Positions 22,434 to 29,531 of a stretch of DNA of 31,929 nt are shown here, piece by piece; the first letter of the stretch is position 1; each line of letters begins with the position of its first letter. The stretch is from a virus. The stretch is taken from positions 1 to 31,929 of IMG/VR virus record IMGVR_UViG_3300025000_000307; one strand, given 5' to 3'. The position numbers were made by a program, and so were the translations under genes. The notes beneath the pieces were generated by a model. It was not told where the DNA came from. It searched no databases and saw only the letters and a list, made by a program, of their open reading frames with translations.

Positions 22434-25400
22434 TTAACCGTTGTATAGTTTGATAGTGCGGTAAGGCGGATTAAAGGTTACCCCGTTATCGTCAGTCAAC
22501 AGCGGAGTCGTGATACAAAGCTGCTGTGATGCAAAATACTGCTTAGCAGAAGTAATCTTCATGTTTGCATCATAGTGCGGGTGCGGCCCTTCAATGGTGA
22601 AGGGACTGCCCACACCAAGGCGGGTCTTGTTCATTGCACCAAGTAGGAGGCGCTTGTCACCTGCTGCCCACGGCGAGTTGATTTCTCCAAGCTGCACACC
22701 ATTTCTAGTGGCAATGTACGGTCTACCGCTTAACAGGTTAGTGCCTGCAGGCAAGCGGGAGTTATAAAACAGTTCGGCAGAGGTAATATTGACCATAGCA
22801 TTAAGAGAACCTAAAGCAAAGTTAGGTGTTACATATCGCGGTGCGCTGCCCATATACGCTTTTTCATAGTCAAACTGCTCGACCAAGCGGTTGAAATACT
22901 TGGCACGGTCAACGCCGTTCGGCACAGTGATATTAAAGAAAGATACATTTGTCGCATATGCATAAGAAATTGTGGGCCTATGCGTTGCATCAACACCAGA
23001 AGCGGCAGTAAAATACACAAGTGCATTCTCAAAGTCTACCGCATAATGTGGGGTCGTCCTGGTTTGTCTTGCAGGGTCAAATTTGGCTTTAATCTGTCCT
23101 GCAATCGGATCCCAAACACCTTCCACCAGGGTAGCAGCACCAAGCACAACAGTAATCGGGTTAGTTGTGGTAAATACCTTTTTGCCTGTGTGGTCGATGT
23201 AGTGCTTTTTCCTTGGCCTTACGACAGGAGGAACCATTGCGCCAATTGCGGTTGTAGCGTATCCAGCAAGCAGAGAAACAACAAAAGCGGCGTTGGTACC
23301 AATAGGAGCATTTGTGCCAGCTCTAATCGCTGCAATTTCATCTACCGTCACTACTTCGTCAACTACTGATTTTGCCAGGTATTCGTCAGAAGTCATCAGC
23401 ATTTCAGTGCTAGTCTTCTGATCAGTAAGGCGAGCAAGACGTTTAGTTAGATTTGCAAGGTTACGGGCTAATACATCGTACCTAAACGGTCCACTCTTCA
23501 GTTCTTCCACTGATTCCTTGGAAACAACAGTGCCACGTTTCAACCATTCGGCACCGAATTCTAAGGTTGAAGTTGCAGTTCCTTCGGTTTCAATACCTTC
23601 ATATTCGCCTGTCGCAAAGTCATCTTGCGAATATAGATCAGCGCTTTCAATCTCCATCAGCACCTTCATGGTTGTGCCACTGAATGGTTCAGTCATAACA
23701 AGTTGCAGGAAATGTAAGTCTTGCCATACCTGTTGCAAAATTGCGCTGGAAATAATTGACGCTTGCGAAAAGTCACCGGTTGCGCTAAGGGCAGAGTCGG
23801 TAATAGCGCCTTCATCATTAATTGCCTGAGCGCTGTCAGTCAGGGATTTCATATGCTTAATAAAATCAGGGTGATTCTCATTTTCCATGCGCTGGAGTAG
23901 TCGATCAAGAATCGCTTTATTAGCTTTTCTTAACTCAGTGTCTGGTAATACGCCTGTTTTGATTCTAAGATGATCATCAAAAGCTAACATAAGCTTATCG
24001 ATAATCGGTTGCCACGGTTGAGCACCTTCACCAAATGTTACTTCAGGTACTGACGTAGTTTTTGCCTGAGTCTGAAAGCCAAGATTATCTAGCTTGCCTA
24101 CCACTTGCATAGAGTCAACAAAGGCTTTCTCCTGCTCAATAAAACTAACCACCTGAACAGCGTCAGTAATAACGGCCTCACCTTTTTTCTGCAAGGCGTC
24201 CTTAATCTTTTGGTCGTAGGGTAAAGCATTTACAGCGTCAGTCAGTGCTTGGACTGCTGCCTCTTTGAGTTGTGCTGCTGCCACTTCTGCCTGGCGGGTC
24301 TCTTCTGCCTGTCTGTAGCGAGTTAATTCATCGGTGACTGCAGTGCTTTGTTCGGCAATTTCTTTCAGCCTAATAGCCTCGTCACATACGGCCATATCTT
24401 TATGCCCGGCATTAGTAGTCTTCCATTGCTTCAATTCATTAAGAGTCATTGAAAGAAAATTCATCTGGTTATCATCCTCCTTTAGCGAGTCACATATTTC
24501 TTTTATTGCAGCGTCGGTCAAGGGTGTGGGTGCGGAAAATGCCAAAGATTCCCCTGGATTCATAACAACGTCCCAACCATACAAAGTTAAGTTCACCGGA
24601 ACTTCCACATTACGGTTATTAACTTTTCTGGTTACTAAAGGACCAGTCATCCGATTTGAAAGACCGACCGGTTTTCCTGCGTCAATTAGTGCTTGTACCA
24701 TTCTACCCTTAGGGAACTCAGACAATGGCTTATATTCAACCATCACAATACCATCGTCTGTAATGTATGCATCACGAAAAGCCACAGCCTGATTTTCAAG
24801 TACTGATTCAAACATCACAGCACCTGTCTTAGCTCTGTATGATTTCGGGTGTGGATTTTCGCCTACATAAGGGAATTTAGCCTTTTTTAATATTGCTAGT
24901 GCAGGTTCATATATAGGACGTGGATATAGCCTCAGATTGTCATTGATTGCGTCAACTTTGCTGGCAGGTTGACGATACCATCCGGACGGTTTTCCTGCGG
25001 CGTCAACTATCGGCTGTGCCATCGACAGGCAAATATCGTGGGTCTCGCCTGTCGCGTCGGTAATAGTGGCGTGTTGTGCGTCGGAAACTTCGGCAGTAAC
25101 TACGATTGTCGTATCGCCGACTTTGAATCCTACAGCGTTTTGCTTTGCCGCTTCCTCCGCCTCTTTTCTTGCCGCGTACTCAATAGAATAAGCACCTGTC
25201 AACTCGCGTCCCTTAATGTCGATTGCCTCATAGTACAGTCGGCGGTCAATCTCGGTTAGTGCTTCGTTAGCAAGTTTCTTCTTGATTGCCAACAGCGCAA
25301 TTGCCGAAGTCGCGGCAAGAATTTCCTTCATTTGCAAGTCGTCTGATAGTGCGTCGGTGACAGGTGCCGTTTCTCCTACTCCTACATCGTTAGCGCTGTC

Positions 25401-25517
25401 TACTATTGCCCGATCTGCCTGATTCTCGCCGGGCTTAAAGCCGATTGTTCCGTTCTCGTTTCCAGGCTCCAAGCTATCCAAAATAGCTTCTTCCCAGTCG
25501 GTATTTGGTATTTTCAT
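22434..25517 (-). CDS. Prohead protease-scaffold-major capsid fusion protein
   Basis: This 1027-residue single ORF appears to combine three functions. Residues about 200-330 resemble the S78/gp21-like prohead protease: a candidate His223 (ENPHPK), Ser287 in VGLSNR and Asp316 in YGWDVVMNPG. Residues about 340-575 are helical and charged (TRYRQAEETRQAEVAAAQLK), fitting a scaffold. Residues about 580-1027 look like an HK97-type major capsid protein (GDFSQASIISSAILQQVW, TSAELFYNSRLPAGTNLLSG). The ATG at 25517 follows AGGAGG at a good distance. No internal frame break or separate ribosome site was noticed. In most phages these are separate genes. Self-cleavage to release the shell protein is inference. 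Confidence 0.82.
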   Translation of the reverse strand: MKIPNTDWEEAILDSLEPGNENGTIGFKPGENQADRAIVDSANDVGVGETAPVTDALSDDLQMKEILAATSAIALLAIKKKLANEALTEIDRRLYYEAIDIKGRELTGAYSIEYAARKEAEEAAKQNAVGFKVGDTTIVVTAEVSDAQHATITDATGETHDICLSMAQPIVDAAGKPSGWYRQPASKVDAINDNLRLYPRPIYEPALAILKKAKFPYVGENPHPKSYRAKTGAVMFESVLENQAVAFRDAYITDDGIVMVEYKPLSEFPKGRMVQALIDAGKPVGLSNRMTGPLVTRKVNNRNVEVPVNLTLYGWDVVMNPGESLAFSAPTPLTDAAIKEICDSLKEDDNQMNFLSMTLNELKQWKTTNAGHKDMAVCDEAIRLKEIAEQSTAVTDELTRYRQAEETRQAEVAAAQLKEAAVQALTDAVNALPYDQKIKDALQKKGEAVITDAVQVVSFIEQEKAFVDSMQVVGKLDNLGFQTQAKTTSVPEVTFGEGAQPWQPIIDKLMLAFDDHLRIKTGVLPDTELRKANKAILDRLLQRMENENHPDFIKHMKSLTDSAQAINDEGAITDSALSATGDFSQASIISSAILQQVWQDLHFLQLVMTEPFSGTTMKVLMEIESADLYSQDDFATGEYEGIETEGTATSTLEFGAEWLKRGTVVSKESVEELKSGPFRYDVLARNLANLTKRLARLTDQKTSTEMLMTSDEYLAKSVVDEVVTVDEIAAIRAGTNAPIGTNAAFVVSLLAGYATTAIGAMVPPVVRPRKKHYIDHTGKKVFTTTNPITVVLGAATLVEGVWDPIAGQIKAKFDPARQTRTTPHYAVDFENALVYFTAASGVDATHRPTISYAYATNVSFFNITVPNGVDRAKYFNRLVEQFDYEKAYMGSAPRYVTPNFALGSLNAMVNITSAELFYNSRLPAGTNLLSGRPYIATRNGVQLGEINSPWAAGDKRLLLGAMNKTRLGVGSPFTIEGPHPHYDANMKITSAKQYFASQQLCITTPLLTDDNGVTFNPPYRTIKLYNG

Positions 25518-25541
25518 AATATCCTCCTTTCGTAGTTTAGA

Positions 25542-25577
25542 TTACCGCTCGTCAGTCGGTGCTCTAACCTGTTTCAC
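25542..25577 (-). CDS. Possible 11-codon leader ORF before the capsid gene
   Basis: A GTG at 25577 lies 7 bases after a strong GGAGG ribosome site and opens 11 codons, MKQVRAPTDER, ending at TAA. It sits between the strong terminator and the capsid gene ribosome site. Such a short ORF with such a strong site could be a leader peptide that affects capsid gene translation or transcript stability, or a degenerate gene end. This is a speculative call. Confidence 0.3.
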   Translation of the reverse strand: MKQVRAPTDER

Positions 25578-25600: not shown

Positions 25601-25652
25601 AAAAGGCGATCACCGACACATTCCCGAAGGAACATACCAGTGACCGCCTTTT
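25601..25652 (-). terminator. Strong intrinsic terminator between regulator and capsid genes
   Basis: On the minus strand AAAAGGCG pairs with CGCCTTTT. A second stem (GTCAC/GTGA-type pairs) follows past one mismatch, with an inner TTCC-TTCG-GGAA hairpin capped by a cUUCGg tetraloop. The 3' side runs into TTTTTTATTTT. It lies 46 bases past the regulator stop and about 85 bases before the capsid gene start. This is the best terminator in the window and also reads as bidirectional by its flanking A and T runs. Confidence 0.85.
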
Positions 25653-25681
25653 GTAAGGTAGGTCCAATATGGATGATTTAA

Positions 25682-25687
25682 ATTATA
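25682..25687 (-). promoter_or_regulatory. Perfect -10-like TATAAT between regulator and terminator (weak candidate)
   Basis: The minus strand has TATAAT here, just past the regulator stop, next to the small palindrome ATAACGTTAT. At a 17-base spacing the upstream hexamer is GATACA, a poor -35. The region is AT-rich, so chance is possible. If real, the transcript would begin around 25675 and meet the strong terminator at once. Confidence 0.25.
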
Positions 25688-25698
25688 ATAACGTTATA

Positions 25699-26526
25699 TT
25701 ATTCTGTATCTTTTAGTGATAAGCAGAATTCCGCAAGGGCATCTATTATATTTACAATCGAACCTTTGCCCATATTTCTTATTTTAAGTAAGTCATCATA
25801 GGTTTTATCAGTTAATTCTGAGACAGTACCTATTAACGCTCTCCTTAAATGATTATACGCTCTGGAGTTTATATTTAATTGACTTATGTCACCGTCTAAA
25901 TATAATTCACTTCCATTTCTAACTATTTTCTCGCTATCAACTAGTCTGACATATCTTTTGTTAGCCTCAATCTCGCATAATTTAGCATCATAATCTTTAT
26001 CCCATTTACGGCGACGCGAACAATGAAACATTTTTTTAACTGCCTTTGTCGCGATTTGCTGCGCTCTTGATGGGGTAATATTTAAACCGCTTGATATGTC
26101 AGAATAAGGCTTTAAACTTCTTGCCCTCTCGGTTAATATATAAACTTCTCTCTCGGTTAGATTAACATCTACTGGGCCGACCTCATTATTAACCAGATAA
26201 TCTATTAGTCTCTGATTTCCGTTATCGATATAGCATTCACTGAAAGGCAGGATAGATTTAAGATAACCACGCTCCTCAATATCTTCTCTAAGGCTAGCTA
26301 TTTTTTCATCTTTTTTTATCCGTGCCTGTTTATCTCTATTACTTACATCTTCCTGATACCTTTTAATATCATCTTGACTTATCAAGCAACAACGATCTCC
26401 AGCGCGATAATACTGAATTTTCCCTTTCATGCAAGCAGCATAAATAGCCTCACAAGAAACCCCAATTATATTGGATGCCTCTTTAATAGAGTAAAGTGTC
26501 GTTGGCTCTTTGATAATTATTGGCAT
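25699..26526 (-). CDS. Regulator with HTH, sigma-region-4-like and RNAP alpha-CTD-like domains
   Basis: This 275-residue protein has three recognisable parts. Residues about 10-58 (LYSIKEASNIIGVSCEAIYA and the DDIKRY end) form an excisionase/MerR-type DNA-binding domain. Residues about 122-167 (LTEREVYILTERARS to SRAQQIATKAVKKM) resemble sigma-70 region 4. Residues about 214-273 (SRAYNHLRRALIGTVSELT, KIRNMGKGSIVNIIDALAEF) closely follow the RNA polymerase alpha subunit C-terminal domain, keeping residues equivalent to E. coli Arg265, Asn268, Gly296 and Ser299, with His and Gly at the 269 and 298 positions. It starts after GGAGGTAATAGGA. A strong terminator follows, then the capsid operon. Likely a DNA-binding activator or RNAP-associated factor; direct targets are unknown. 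Confidence 0.78.
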   Translation of the reverse strand: MPIIIKEPTTLYSIKEASNIIGVSCEAIYAACMKGKIQYYRAGDRCCLISQDDIKRYQEDVSNRDKQARIKKDEKIASLREDIEERGYLKSILPFSECYIDNGNQRLIDYLVNNEVGPVDVNLTEREVYILTERARSLKPYSDISSGLNITPSRAQQIATKAVKKMFHCSRRRKWDKDYDAKLCEIEANKRYVRLVDSEKIVRNGSELYLDGDISQLNINSRAYNHLRRALIGTVSELTDKTYDDLLKIRNMGKGSIVNIIDALAEFCLSLKDTE

Positions 26527-27293: not shown

Positions 27294-29531
27294 TTATGGC
27301 ATTATGGGGAGTAATGTACAACGGCACTGAGGATGTTTTGGAATATCTGGCGCATCGTCAATGTCATAGATATTTCCGTCAAGCGCTTTACATATCGGGC
27401 ATGTCCTCGCATCTCTTGCGGCACTCCATTCAACCCGCTCAACTCCGGCACCTTTATAATGTGCCTTTGATGATTGATTATAGGCCCACATCATCTCTGT
27501 TCTGGCTATTACAACCGACCTAACAGATTGAGCTGTATTAAATACCTTGTCGATACGTGCAGCAATTTTAAGAGCACCTTCACCGGCCATATAGCCTTCA
27601 GATAAAGCAACCCTGATCTGCTCCCGTGTTGTGTCGCCAATACCTTTAATCCGCTCGCCTGTCTCGTTATAGACGCGGTTAAAGATATCTTCCGTTAGAA
27701 GTTTAAATTCAAGCCCTAGCTGAATATAAGCATATTCACCGCCAAGACCTGCCGCACTCCTATAAAATGGAGACATAGCATTTAAGTAAAGTGCAGTTTC
27801 ATCTATCCATGCACTGTCAAAGCTATCGATAATCTTTTGTGTAGCTTTGTGCGCTGCTTCATCGTCTACCTCAGCGTCGGCAGCGTCAGTTACTTCCTGC
27901 TCCTGCTCAGCTATCTTTTTTTTTAGCTTTTTATGAACATTGGAGAATAGTTTTTGGGTTTGCTTTAGCACCTTAGCCTCAAGAGCGTTGATTTCCTTCT
28001 CTTGAAACCCATCTGCCCACTCTTGAGCGTCAGTGATATGGCTATGACCATAACCGTCAGTAAGTTGCGTTTCCCGTGGTTCTAAGATAGGCGGCATACC
28101 GGCCAGCAAAGCCAACGCCGCCTTACTTTCTTCGTCAATCGCTGCAAGTTCCTCGTCCACACTCTCAACATCGAAGTCGTTAGCGATGGACTGCAGCGCT
28201 GTTCTCCTGCTCAGCAACTTGCCCCTCATAACCTTGAGAACGCGATCTATCCTGTCCTTTGTCGGTTCGTTGCTCTTATCGCTCCAGCGGATATTGTAGC
28301 TCACTGAATCAGGGTTAATGCCCTGTAGTAGCAGCGCAAAATCGAATATATCCCGAAGACCTGAGAACGCTCCAGAATCCCCATATTCCAAGGCATCAGT
28401 CAGCTGTTCAAGGCTTTTTTCATATTCCTTATACTGATCTTCTAGTACGTCGCGGTTAATATCCTCAGCGAAACCCAGCAGACCTTTTGGAACCCCTAAG
28501 CGTAAAAAAGCCATATTGAGCAGATAAATAATATCCGCAATTTCATGTAGCTTAGCGTCACCGTCAAGGTTCTTTATGTCCGTTAGACCATTGCCGTAGT
28601 AGTCAGTTGTAACTTTAAATTTACTACTGCCAAGGGAATTTTTCTTTTTATATTCCTCCACCGCGTCCCAGTTCTGCGGCTTTTCTTTGTTACCAACTGT
28701 ATGTAATCTTCTCTGTGGTGCCCTGGTGCGACGTCTAACAACCAAGTCTTCCTCTGTCATTTGTAACTTCTTCACTAAGCTTCGGATCTGCTTATACTGG
28801 CTGTTGCCGTAAACATCACCGTCTGTATGGTCCCACCTGATATGGTTCATCTGCCACAAGGCAAAGTGGCGCGATGCACTGTCAGGTATTCCAGCAAATA
28901 ATGAAGCAGCGTGCATGGCAGGATCTAACTGACTAAATGCTTGGTTGATATCGATAAACTGCCCTCTGTCATCCACATTTCGCTTCATCGTGATCGGTGG
29001 TACCCTACGAATATCGACAATGGTATTGTCCCGCATATCAACAATGACGTTGAGCATCAGATCGCCGTCAGAAACCAGTCGCTTTGCCCAGCCGTTGACC
29101 TTAGCATTAACCTTTGCTGTTTTCACCAGGTCGTTAAGTATCTGCTGCGCCTTGTTGGCTGTAGCGTTGGACCGTGCTTTTGTCGCACCGGGTCGCGCTT
29201 TTTTGTTTTTGGCTTGAATGTCAGAAGTAGCACCCGACACGACTACTGTTATGCCGCCCCGCGTTGCAGCGTTAGCCATGCGCTTATTAGCCTCAGCTAC
29301 CCTCGGATCCTCGTCAAGCAGTTTTTGAACATCAGCAAGCACAGACCTTCTGTCATTTTCAACCTTGAATATGTCGTAGTTAAAAAGACTCTCAGATTGT
29401 GCCTGACTAGCTACTTCTGAGTAGTGATCTGTTGATTGTACATCCTCAACCTCCGCTGTAGGCTTAGAAGTTTTAAAAAGAGAGGTTATTTTGGAGGTAA
29501 GTTTATCTATAAGCATCATAGTAATCATCAT
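27294..29531 (-). CDS. Portal protein fused to C-terminal MuF-like minor head domain
   Basis: This 745-residue protein carries a portal core: residues about 160-320 with DNTIVDIRRVPPITMK, a QMNHIRWDHTDGDVYGNSQY segment and VRRRTRAPQRRLHTV, which resembles the T4 gp20-like portal family. The last 130 or so residues resemble MuF/SPP1 gp7-type domains: VVIARTEMMWAYNQ, then a cysteine pair in CPIC and CRC and a KHPQCRCTLLP end. Normally this is a separate gene. It overlaps the large terminase gene by 29 bases. Several ATGs crowd the start (29531, 29528, 29519, 29516) and the GAGG site suits none perfectly, so the exact start is uncertain. The ring anchors DNA packaging. Confidence 0.85.
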   Translation of the reverse strand: MMITMMLIDKLTSKITSLFKTSKPTAEVEDVQSTDHYSEVASQAQSESLFNYDIFKVENDRRSVLADVQKLLDEDPRVAEANKRMANAATRGGITVVVSGATSDIQAKNKKARPGATKARSNATANKAQQILNDLVKTAKVNAKVNGWAKRLVSDGDLMLNVIVDMRDNTIVDIRRVPPITMKRNVDDRGQFIDINQAFSQLDPAMHAASLFAGIPDSASRHFALWQMNHIRWDHTDGDVYGNSQYKQIRSLVKKLQMTEEDLVVRRRTRAPQRRLHTVGNKEKPQNWDAVEEYKKKNSLGSSKFKVTTDYYGNGLTDIKNLDGDAKLHEIADIIYLLNMAFLRLGVPKGLLGFAEDINRDVLEDQYKEYEKSLEQLTDALEYGDSGAFSGLRDIFDFALLLQGINPDSVSYNIRWSDKSNEPTKDRIDRVLKVMRGKLLSRRTALQSIANDFDVESVDEELAAIDEESKAALALLAGMPPILEPRETQLTDGYGHSHITDAQEWADGFQEKEINALEAKVLKQTQKLFSNVHKKLKKKIAEQEQEVTDAADAEVDDEAAHKATQKIIDSFDSAWIDETALYLNAMSPFYRSAAGLGGEYAYIQLGLEFKLLTEDIFNRVYNETGERIKGIGDTTREQIRVALSEGYMAGEGALKIAARIDKVFNTAQSVRSVVIARTEMMWAYNQSSKAHYKGAGVERVEWSAARDARTCPICKALDGNIYDIDDAPDIPKHPQCRCTLLPIMP

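Follow-up and report, generated by a model that had tools for sequence, protein, structure and literature searches.

A Predicted Protease-Scaffold-Capsid Polyprotein with a T4-Type Protease and a Conserved Internal Start in a Clade of Tailed Phages

Introduction

In phage T4, the head genes for protease, scaffold and capsid are separate and follow the order 21-22-23. For phage lambda (C/Nu3), the scaffold is produced from an in-frame internal start within the protease gene. The same arrangement has been described for the I/Z genes of Mu and for PaMx73 (PMC4378225). In other phages, the protease is joined to the shell protein. Protease-capsid fusions were described for Paracoccus prophages, Rhodobacter RcC and Rhodococcus CF (PMC6536676, PMC8601537, PMC13313380), and for gp5 of Pseudomonas phage MD8 (KX198612), protease, scaffold and capsid were proposed to lie in one gene (PMC8508860). 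The gp6 protein of Brevibacillus phage Emery is listed as "Prohead core scaffolding/protease" in Table 4 of PMC4168068.

This paper deals with a gene in a viral DNA of 31,929 nucleotides (IMG/VR record IMGVR_UViG_3300025000_000307), the whole of which is referred to as the window. A sequence-only reading of the window had described the gene as a single protease-scaffold-capsid polyprotein. The coordinates of its predicted parts are given in Table 1.

Table 1. Positions of the polyprotein gene and of its predicted parts and signals in the window.
Feature	Position	Strand	Basis
Full ORF, putative protease-scaffold-capsid polyprotein, stop included	22434..25517	-	ORF and PHROG 22848 match
Shine-Dalgarno sequence AAAGGAGG of the full-length start (ATG at 25517-25515)	25523..25530	-	Upstream sequence, 16S pairing
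N-terminal extension, residues 1-156	25050..25517	-	Alignment, full-length model
Predicted protease domain, residues ~157-322, T4 gp21 (S77) fold	24552..25049	-	Structure, profiles, conservation
Internal Shine-Dalgarno sequence AAAGGAGG before codon 352	24476..24483	-	Start-codon scan, 16S pairing
Predicted internal start codon (ATG352), from which the 676-aa scaffold-capsid protein would begin	24462..24464	-	Start-site comparison
Scaffold-like helical region, residues 352-574, many [ILVMF]xD[SA] motifs	23796..24464	-	Model, motif counts
Predicted maturation cleavage Asp574/Ser575 (ITD/SA); second candidate Asp561/Ser562	23793..23798	-	Alignment, motifs
Predicted mature major capsid protein, residues 575-1027 (453 aa), HK97-type fold	22437..23795	-	Model, structure search

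The Gene and Its Relatives

An ORF of 1027 codons, with an ATG start behind AAAGGAGG, occupies positions 22434-25517. Protease-, scaffold- and capsid-like regions follow each other in one uninterrupted frame, as the sequence-only reading had stated, and the boundaries of the frame proved exact, though it lies on the minus strand. PHROG 22848, a family labelled "unknown function", matches the window protein along residues 48-1026 with 1300 bits and was found in all 23 genes compared. NCBIfam contains no family for the window protein, and an Rfam search around the gene yielded nothing. Confidence in the full-length structure model is low on the whole (pLDDT 59). In the N-terminal extension, residues 1-50 are poorly conserved and residues 61-126 are helical in the model; L014 and L018 are without the extension.

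Emery gp6 (KC595516) was identified as a homologue over 95% of the length, with 52.5% identity. At first pass, six viral loci with full-length homologues were found. Genomes of Brevibacillus, Paenibacillus and Clostridia contributed 11 loci, of which three are fragmentary, and viral contigs at a greater distance carry homologues as well, with an identity that falls to about 30%. Wherever the DNA of a relative spans the gene, the homologous frame is without an internal stop, the gene's own terminal stop being set aside where the match overran the gene end. A frameshift or sequencing error hiding separate ORFs, which had been named as a possible refutation of the polyprotein reading, is ruled out by these intact frames. 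Protease and capsid profiles were both found in one stop-to-stop frame at 63 of the 70 loci scanned, many of which overlap on the same contigs. The seven exceptions are the contig-edge fragments L030, L035, L039, L086 and L107 and the remote genes L009 and L052, in each of which just one of the two domain profiles matched.

Split homologues of this capsid were absent from the 41 loci of the capsid-profile scan. In the protease-profile scan, the protease was a stand-alone gene in all 19 more distant viral loci (L117-L135); there, as in Rhodothermus phage RM378, the frame with the profile has a length of only 181-205 aa. The fusion thus belongs to this capsid clade and not to the protease as such.

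The Protease Domain

Residues 157-322 of the window protein are predicted, on profiles and a structure model, to form a prohead protease of the T4 gp21 type (S77). Homology to proteases in residues 200-330 had been expected, and it was found by sequence as well as by structure. PHROG 207, "head maturation protease", matches the window protein with E 3.6e-9, in a match that extends to residue 494, and it matches 23/23 genes. With the sequence profile, T4 gp21 (5JBL) was found at E 1.7e-6. In a structure search with the model, 5JBL was aligned over 144 residues with Z 12.6 and an rmsd of 3.2, well ahead of the row below it (Z 4.7); a herpesvirus protease had Z 4.4. Foldseek placed three T4 gp21 chains on top (E 3e-6 to 2e-5). 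Within this domain, the model has a pLDDT of 65-86 in most ten-residue blocks, but of 35 at residues 221-240.

With Pfam S77, 18 of 23 genes match at E 0.1, while the window protein alone is not significant (E 0.18). When the same model was run over 11 genomes, nine gave one match each, which was always the fusion gene; at E 0.001, no match was obtained in the window or in L001. The miss in the window is a limit of the Pfam model, given that PHROG 207 recognises the window protein.

His223, Ser287 and Asp316 are invariant in 23/23 genes, some of which are only 30% identical, and they align with the active-site region of 5JBL. At the positions where the family has the His and Ser of this triad, 5JBL shows Ala; presumably it represents a catalytic mutant.

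In a distant group, an insert resembling a zinc ribbon, with Cys pairs and DPDGDxD, was observed between protease and scaffold (codons ~195-230 in L034, L036 and L037, codons ~280-310 in L038).

The Scaffold-Like Region and the Predicted Cleavage Motif

Residues ~352-574 are described here as scaffold-like on the basis of their position, the predicted helices, the motif pattern and the reach of PHROG 207 to residue 494, rather than of similarity to an established scaffold protein. In this region the motif [ILVMF]xD[SA] is strongly enriched, with 169 occurrences in 23 genes compared to 22.7 +- 4.5 in shuffled sequences. It is also frequent in the protease (68 versus 11.1 expected) and in the N-terminal extension (47 versus 8.6), and it is depleted in the capsid (11 versus 21.5). 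The Glu version, [ILVMF]xE[SA], is rarer than expected in the scaffold part (8 versus 23.1), a pattern that would argue against cleavage at Glu. While the totals over 23 genes are inflated by shared ancestry, the window gene alone contains 16 motifs versus 3.2 +- 1.8 expected; among the 20 other ORFs of the window, the largest excesses are 4 versus 1.0 +- 1.0 and, for the portal, 6 versus 2.8 +- 1.6.

The last site before the capsid, ITD574/S575, is present in 18/23 genes. The motif is likely a cleavage signal, with Ser575 as the predicted N-terminus of the capsid; the earlier placement of this N-terminus near residues 575-590 agrees with the ITDSA motif at 572-576. Characterised proteases of the T4 type, including that of T4 itself, are described as cutting behind Glu, with ITE and LTE among their sites (PMC5694885), whereas the motif of the window gene has Asp. 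A shift from Glu to Asp with unchanged spacing is therefore predicted for this clade.

The difference between the Asp-based motif and the Glu-based sites of the studied relatives would also be expected if the polyprotein were cut by a host protease or by another phage protease, with the S77-like domain persisting as a structural relic. A relic would hardly be expected to keep His223, Ser287 and Asp316 without change in all 23 genes, aligned with the active-site region of the T4 enzyme, and we regard this explanation as most improbable.

The Capsid Domain

Residues 575-1027 were folded alone, using an alignment of 36 sequences (pLDDT 70), and the model shows an HK97-type capsid fold. In the structure search, the top match was phage HRP29 (Z 11.8), followed by jumbo phage S6 (Z 11.4), T4 gp23 (Z 11.1) and HK97 (Z 9.1), and the rows listed are capsid-type shells; the structural alignment leaves out roughly the first 90 residues of the domain. 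Because Foldseek alone was marginal, with E 1e-3 at best, it is the agreement among these rows that carries the assignment. Direct sequence matches of the capsid part to solved structures gave none that counts, and among the 19 other ORFs of the window scanned against PHROGs, no other capsid gene was found. The three segments for which structure prediction had been proposed thus resemble the T4 gp21 fold, a helical scaffold-like part and an HK97-type capsid.

The Internal Start at Codon 352

A scan of the frame for start codons preceded by a Shine-Dalgarno tract identified codon 352, which sits at the protease/scaffold junction. The window gene was compared with 23 others, Emery included. A start codon is present at the junction in 24/24 genes (ATG in 18, GTG in 5 and TTG in 1); for the four most remote genes, L034, L036, L037 and L038, the codon was picked by inspection at the scaffold's first residue and not by alignment column. 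Predicted pairing with the 16S tail has a mean of -12.4 kcal/mol at the junction starts versus -11.3 kcal/mol at the genes' own starts. The 1230 other in-frame start codons average -3.1 kcal/mol, and 0.16% of them reach the median of the junction starts. In 19/24 genes the junction start is the strongest internal one; in the other five (L011, L034, L036, L037 and L038), another in-frame start is at least as strong. Predicted accessibility is no worse at the internal start (0.69 unpaired) than at the main start (0.60).

The signal was also looked for in 14 more distant or partial fused genes which had not been used to define it. In 13/14 of these the strongest internal start lies between protease and capsid, where 4.16 would be expected (P 1.1e-6 on the assumption of independent genes, which holds only in part), and in 12/14 it lies at the scaffold's first residue. 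In L080 the junction start ranks second, and in the distant L085 the signal is absent. Owing to the shared ancestry of the genes, all of these counts overstate independence. The partial genes L015, L019, L020, L030, L035, L039, L040/L084 and L086 were left out of the counts, as were L117-L135, since the protease there is not fused; the partial L019 has the same start, with AGAGGAGG.

A signal of this kind might be a by-product of the protein sequence, namely of a KEDD..M linker, and not of translation. The linker of the close group, which often reads KED or KEE followed by M, is in line with such an origin. However, the encoded residue may be M, V or L, yet it is specified by a start codon in all 24 genes, and in other clades the linker residues differ while the purine tract persists. 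The codon phase of the Shine-Dalgarno tract varies between clades, where it encodes KED, KGG, EGG, KGD or EEE, so that amino-acid constraint does not explain its conservation. Synonymous constraint also speaks against a by-product, with five 5-codon windows within codons 342-351 ranking 7 to 15 of 968. An origin in the protein sequence is considered very unlikely, and the conservation pattern looks like selection on translation.

Two nested products are likely to be formed from the gene, a protease-scaffold-capsid protein of 1027 aa and a scaffold-capsid protein of 676 aa. It had been proposed instead that the single frame implies a fixed 1:1 ratio of protease to shell, unless internal starts exist. 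This would hold if only the 1027-aa protein were made and the internal start remained unused, and both the uninterrupted frame in all relatives covering the gene and the good ribosome-binding site of the full-length start would suit a single product. Against it stands the internal start with its Shine-Dalgarno sequence, kept at the nucleotide level though the encoded residues change; moreover, some 350 N-terminal residues per subunit, multiplied by hundreds of subunits, would be expected to crowd the prohead. A single product is judged unlikely, and the fixed ratio is probably wrong, since the conserved start at codon 352 should give a product without protease.

A separate capsid start near residue 575 was also considered and rejected: among the in-frame starts up to 25 codons away, the best one of the window is weak (-2.6 kcal/mol), and those of 18 other genes range from -1.2 to -7.7 kcal/mol at scattered positions. 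As no start is conserved at the capsid, the mature shell protein should arise by cleavage. The earlier suggestion that an internal start could supply free capsid protein did allow for such a start, but codon 352 precedes the scaffold and would supply scaffold-capsid instead.

Gene Neighbourhood

The gene is part of a head cassette. Before it lie a terminase small-subunit-like ORF, a 510-aa ORF for which database searches gave no convincing match, and a portal of T4-like type with a fused Mu F-like domain; after it come genes for adaptor and neck, followed by those for tail sheath, tape measure and baseplate. The tail sheath, baseplate and other genes of this cassette point to a contractile-tailed phage.

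The portal gene at 27294-29531 (-) joins a T4 gp20-like portal and a Mu F/SPP1 gp7-like domain in one frame of 745 aa. In Emery, the portal region is annotated as a two-piece join, which is described as ribosomal slippage (PMC4909266). Between portal and polyprotein, positions 25603-26526 (-) code for a protein of 275 aa with HTH_17, weak sigma-70 region 4 and RNA polymerase alpha-CTD matches, and a strong 20-pair terminator-like hairpin follows the gene. The gene is absent at that place in the closest relative, L001, and looks like a moron-type insert with a transcription regulator. A leader ORF of 11 codons lies at 25542-25577 (-); its GTG follows GGAGGTGAT, and it stops shortly before the polyprotein start.

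A block of 17 nt, MGGGTGCTTTTTGATTC, which is absent from the window, was observed in the protease coding region of L005 (8499-8588) and of ten further loci of A6. It carries the strongest synonymous constraint in the gene, with top ranks above the windows at codons 342-351, and can pair with the upstream GGAGAGCACCC in a 12-pair hairpin whose pairs are nearly invariant, so that covariation is uninformative. In viral contigs, 12 of 13 hits to the block were attributed to this polyprotein gene family (L040 and L042 by tblastn, the others by contig name) and one, L048, to chance. A role as terminator or frameshift site was rejected, as slippage by -1 would lead only to a stop codon and the block is missing from the window; a terminator scan of L005, whose loop limit of 8 bases excludes the MGGGTGCTTTTTGATTC/GGAGAGCACCC hairpin, gave nothing.

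Proposed Mechanism

We propose, with a probability of about 80%, that a cassette in T4 order was fused into one frame with the scaffold start kept, and that its two products co-assemble before the protease matures the head. The proposal builds on what was observed: one open frame, protease homology with an intact triad, a capsid fold, a conserved internal start and the uneven distribution of the motif. A gp21-type protease, a gp22-like scaffold and a gp23-like capsid would have been fused, perhaps by loss of the stop codon between genes 21 and 22, while the start site of gene 22 and the ribosome-binding site of the scaffold cistron would have been retained. Initiation at codon 1 would give the protease-scaffold-capsid protein, and initiation at codon 352, presumably the dominant one, the scaffold-capsid protein. 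Both products may then co-assemble into the prohead via their common capsid domain. The covalent linkage would place the protease inside the shell, and its dose would be set by the relative strength of the two start sites. After assembly, the protease is predicted to cut [I/L]xD/[S/A] sites behind the Asp, which would release the capsid domain at Ser575 and shred scaffold and protease, so that shell protein of one kind remains.

With somewhat less assurance, we favour the extension of this scheme to a whole clade of tailed phages: one capsid gene with two starts would give a rarer protease-scaffold-capsid and a commoner scaffold-capsid protein, which co-assemble; the two ribosome-binding sites would set the protease dose, packaging would be covalent, and a protease of the T4 type would have switched from Glu to Asp.

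Comparison with Known Systems

The T4 head genes 21-22-23 share the protease fold and the capsid fold with the window gene, and a T4-like portal lies upstream of the latter. Stand-alone proteases, as in T4, are found with 198-205 aa in the 19 viral loci L117-L135. In HK97 gp5, the scaffold is fused to the N-terminus of the capsid (delta domain), like in the window gene; however, the protease of HK97 is a separate gene 4 (PMC8508860). The conserved internal Shine-Dalgarno start at the protease/scaffold junction, in 24/24 and 13/14 genes, is of the lambda Nu3/Mu Z type. For lambda C/Nu3 and Mu I/Z, the nested product consists of scaffold only, the capsid having its own gene, whereas in the window gene the capsid would be part of both products.

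Among the described fusions, MD8 gp5, of 693 aa, has a ClpP-like protease, not one of the T4 gp21 type, and a capsid closest to Mu (PMC8508860); the Paracoccus prophage fusions likewise combine ClpP-like and gpT-like parts. In MD8 gp5 (L136:4371-6449), the strongest internal Shine-Dalgarno start is codon 185 of 693, near the protease/scaffold border and inside the published protease range 16-204 (PMC8508860); the word "internal" is absent from the text of that paper. In virus Rctr41k, the record annotates protease and capsid in one gene, and a junction ATG297 behind AAGGAG is present, yet it is only the eighth strongest internal start. No report of an internal start in a protease-capsid fusion was recognised in the literature searched. 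Emery gp6 has the portal directly upstream and the same internal start as the window gene; in the table of PMC4168068, no major capsid protein is given for Emery and the internal start is not mentioned.

Three-way fusions are thus known from MD8 and, separately, nested scaffold starts from lambda and Mu. Their combination with a T4-type protease is new, as are the recognition of the capsid part and a conserved nested start giving scaffold-capsid rather than scaffold. It shows how a phage could fuse its protease to the shell gene without a protease on every shell subunit, supplies the missing capsid gene of Emery-like phages, and leads to predictions for both the cleavage rule and the N-terminus of the capsid. 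Other protease-capsid fusions could be checked in the same way, since those which have been called single products may hide a nested start.
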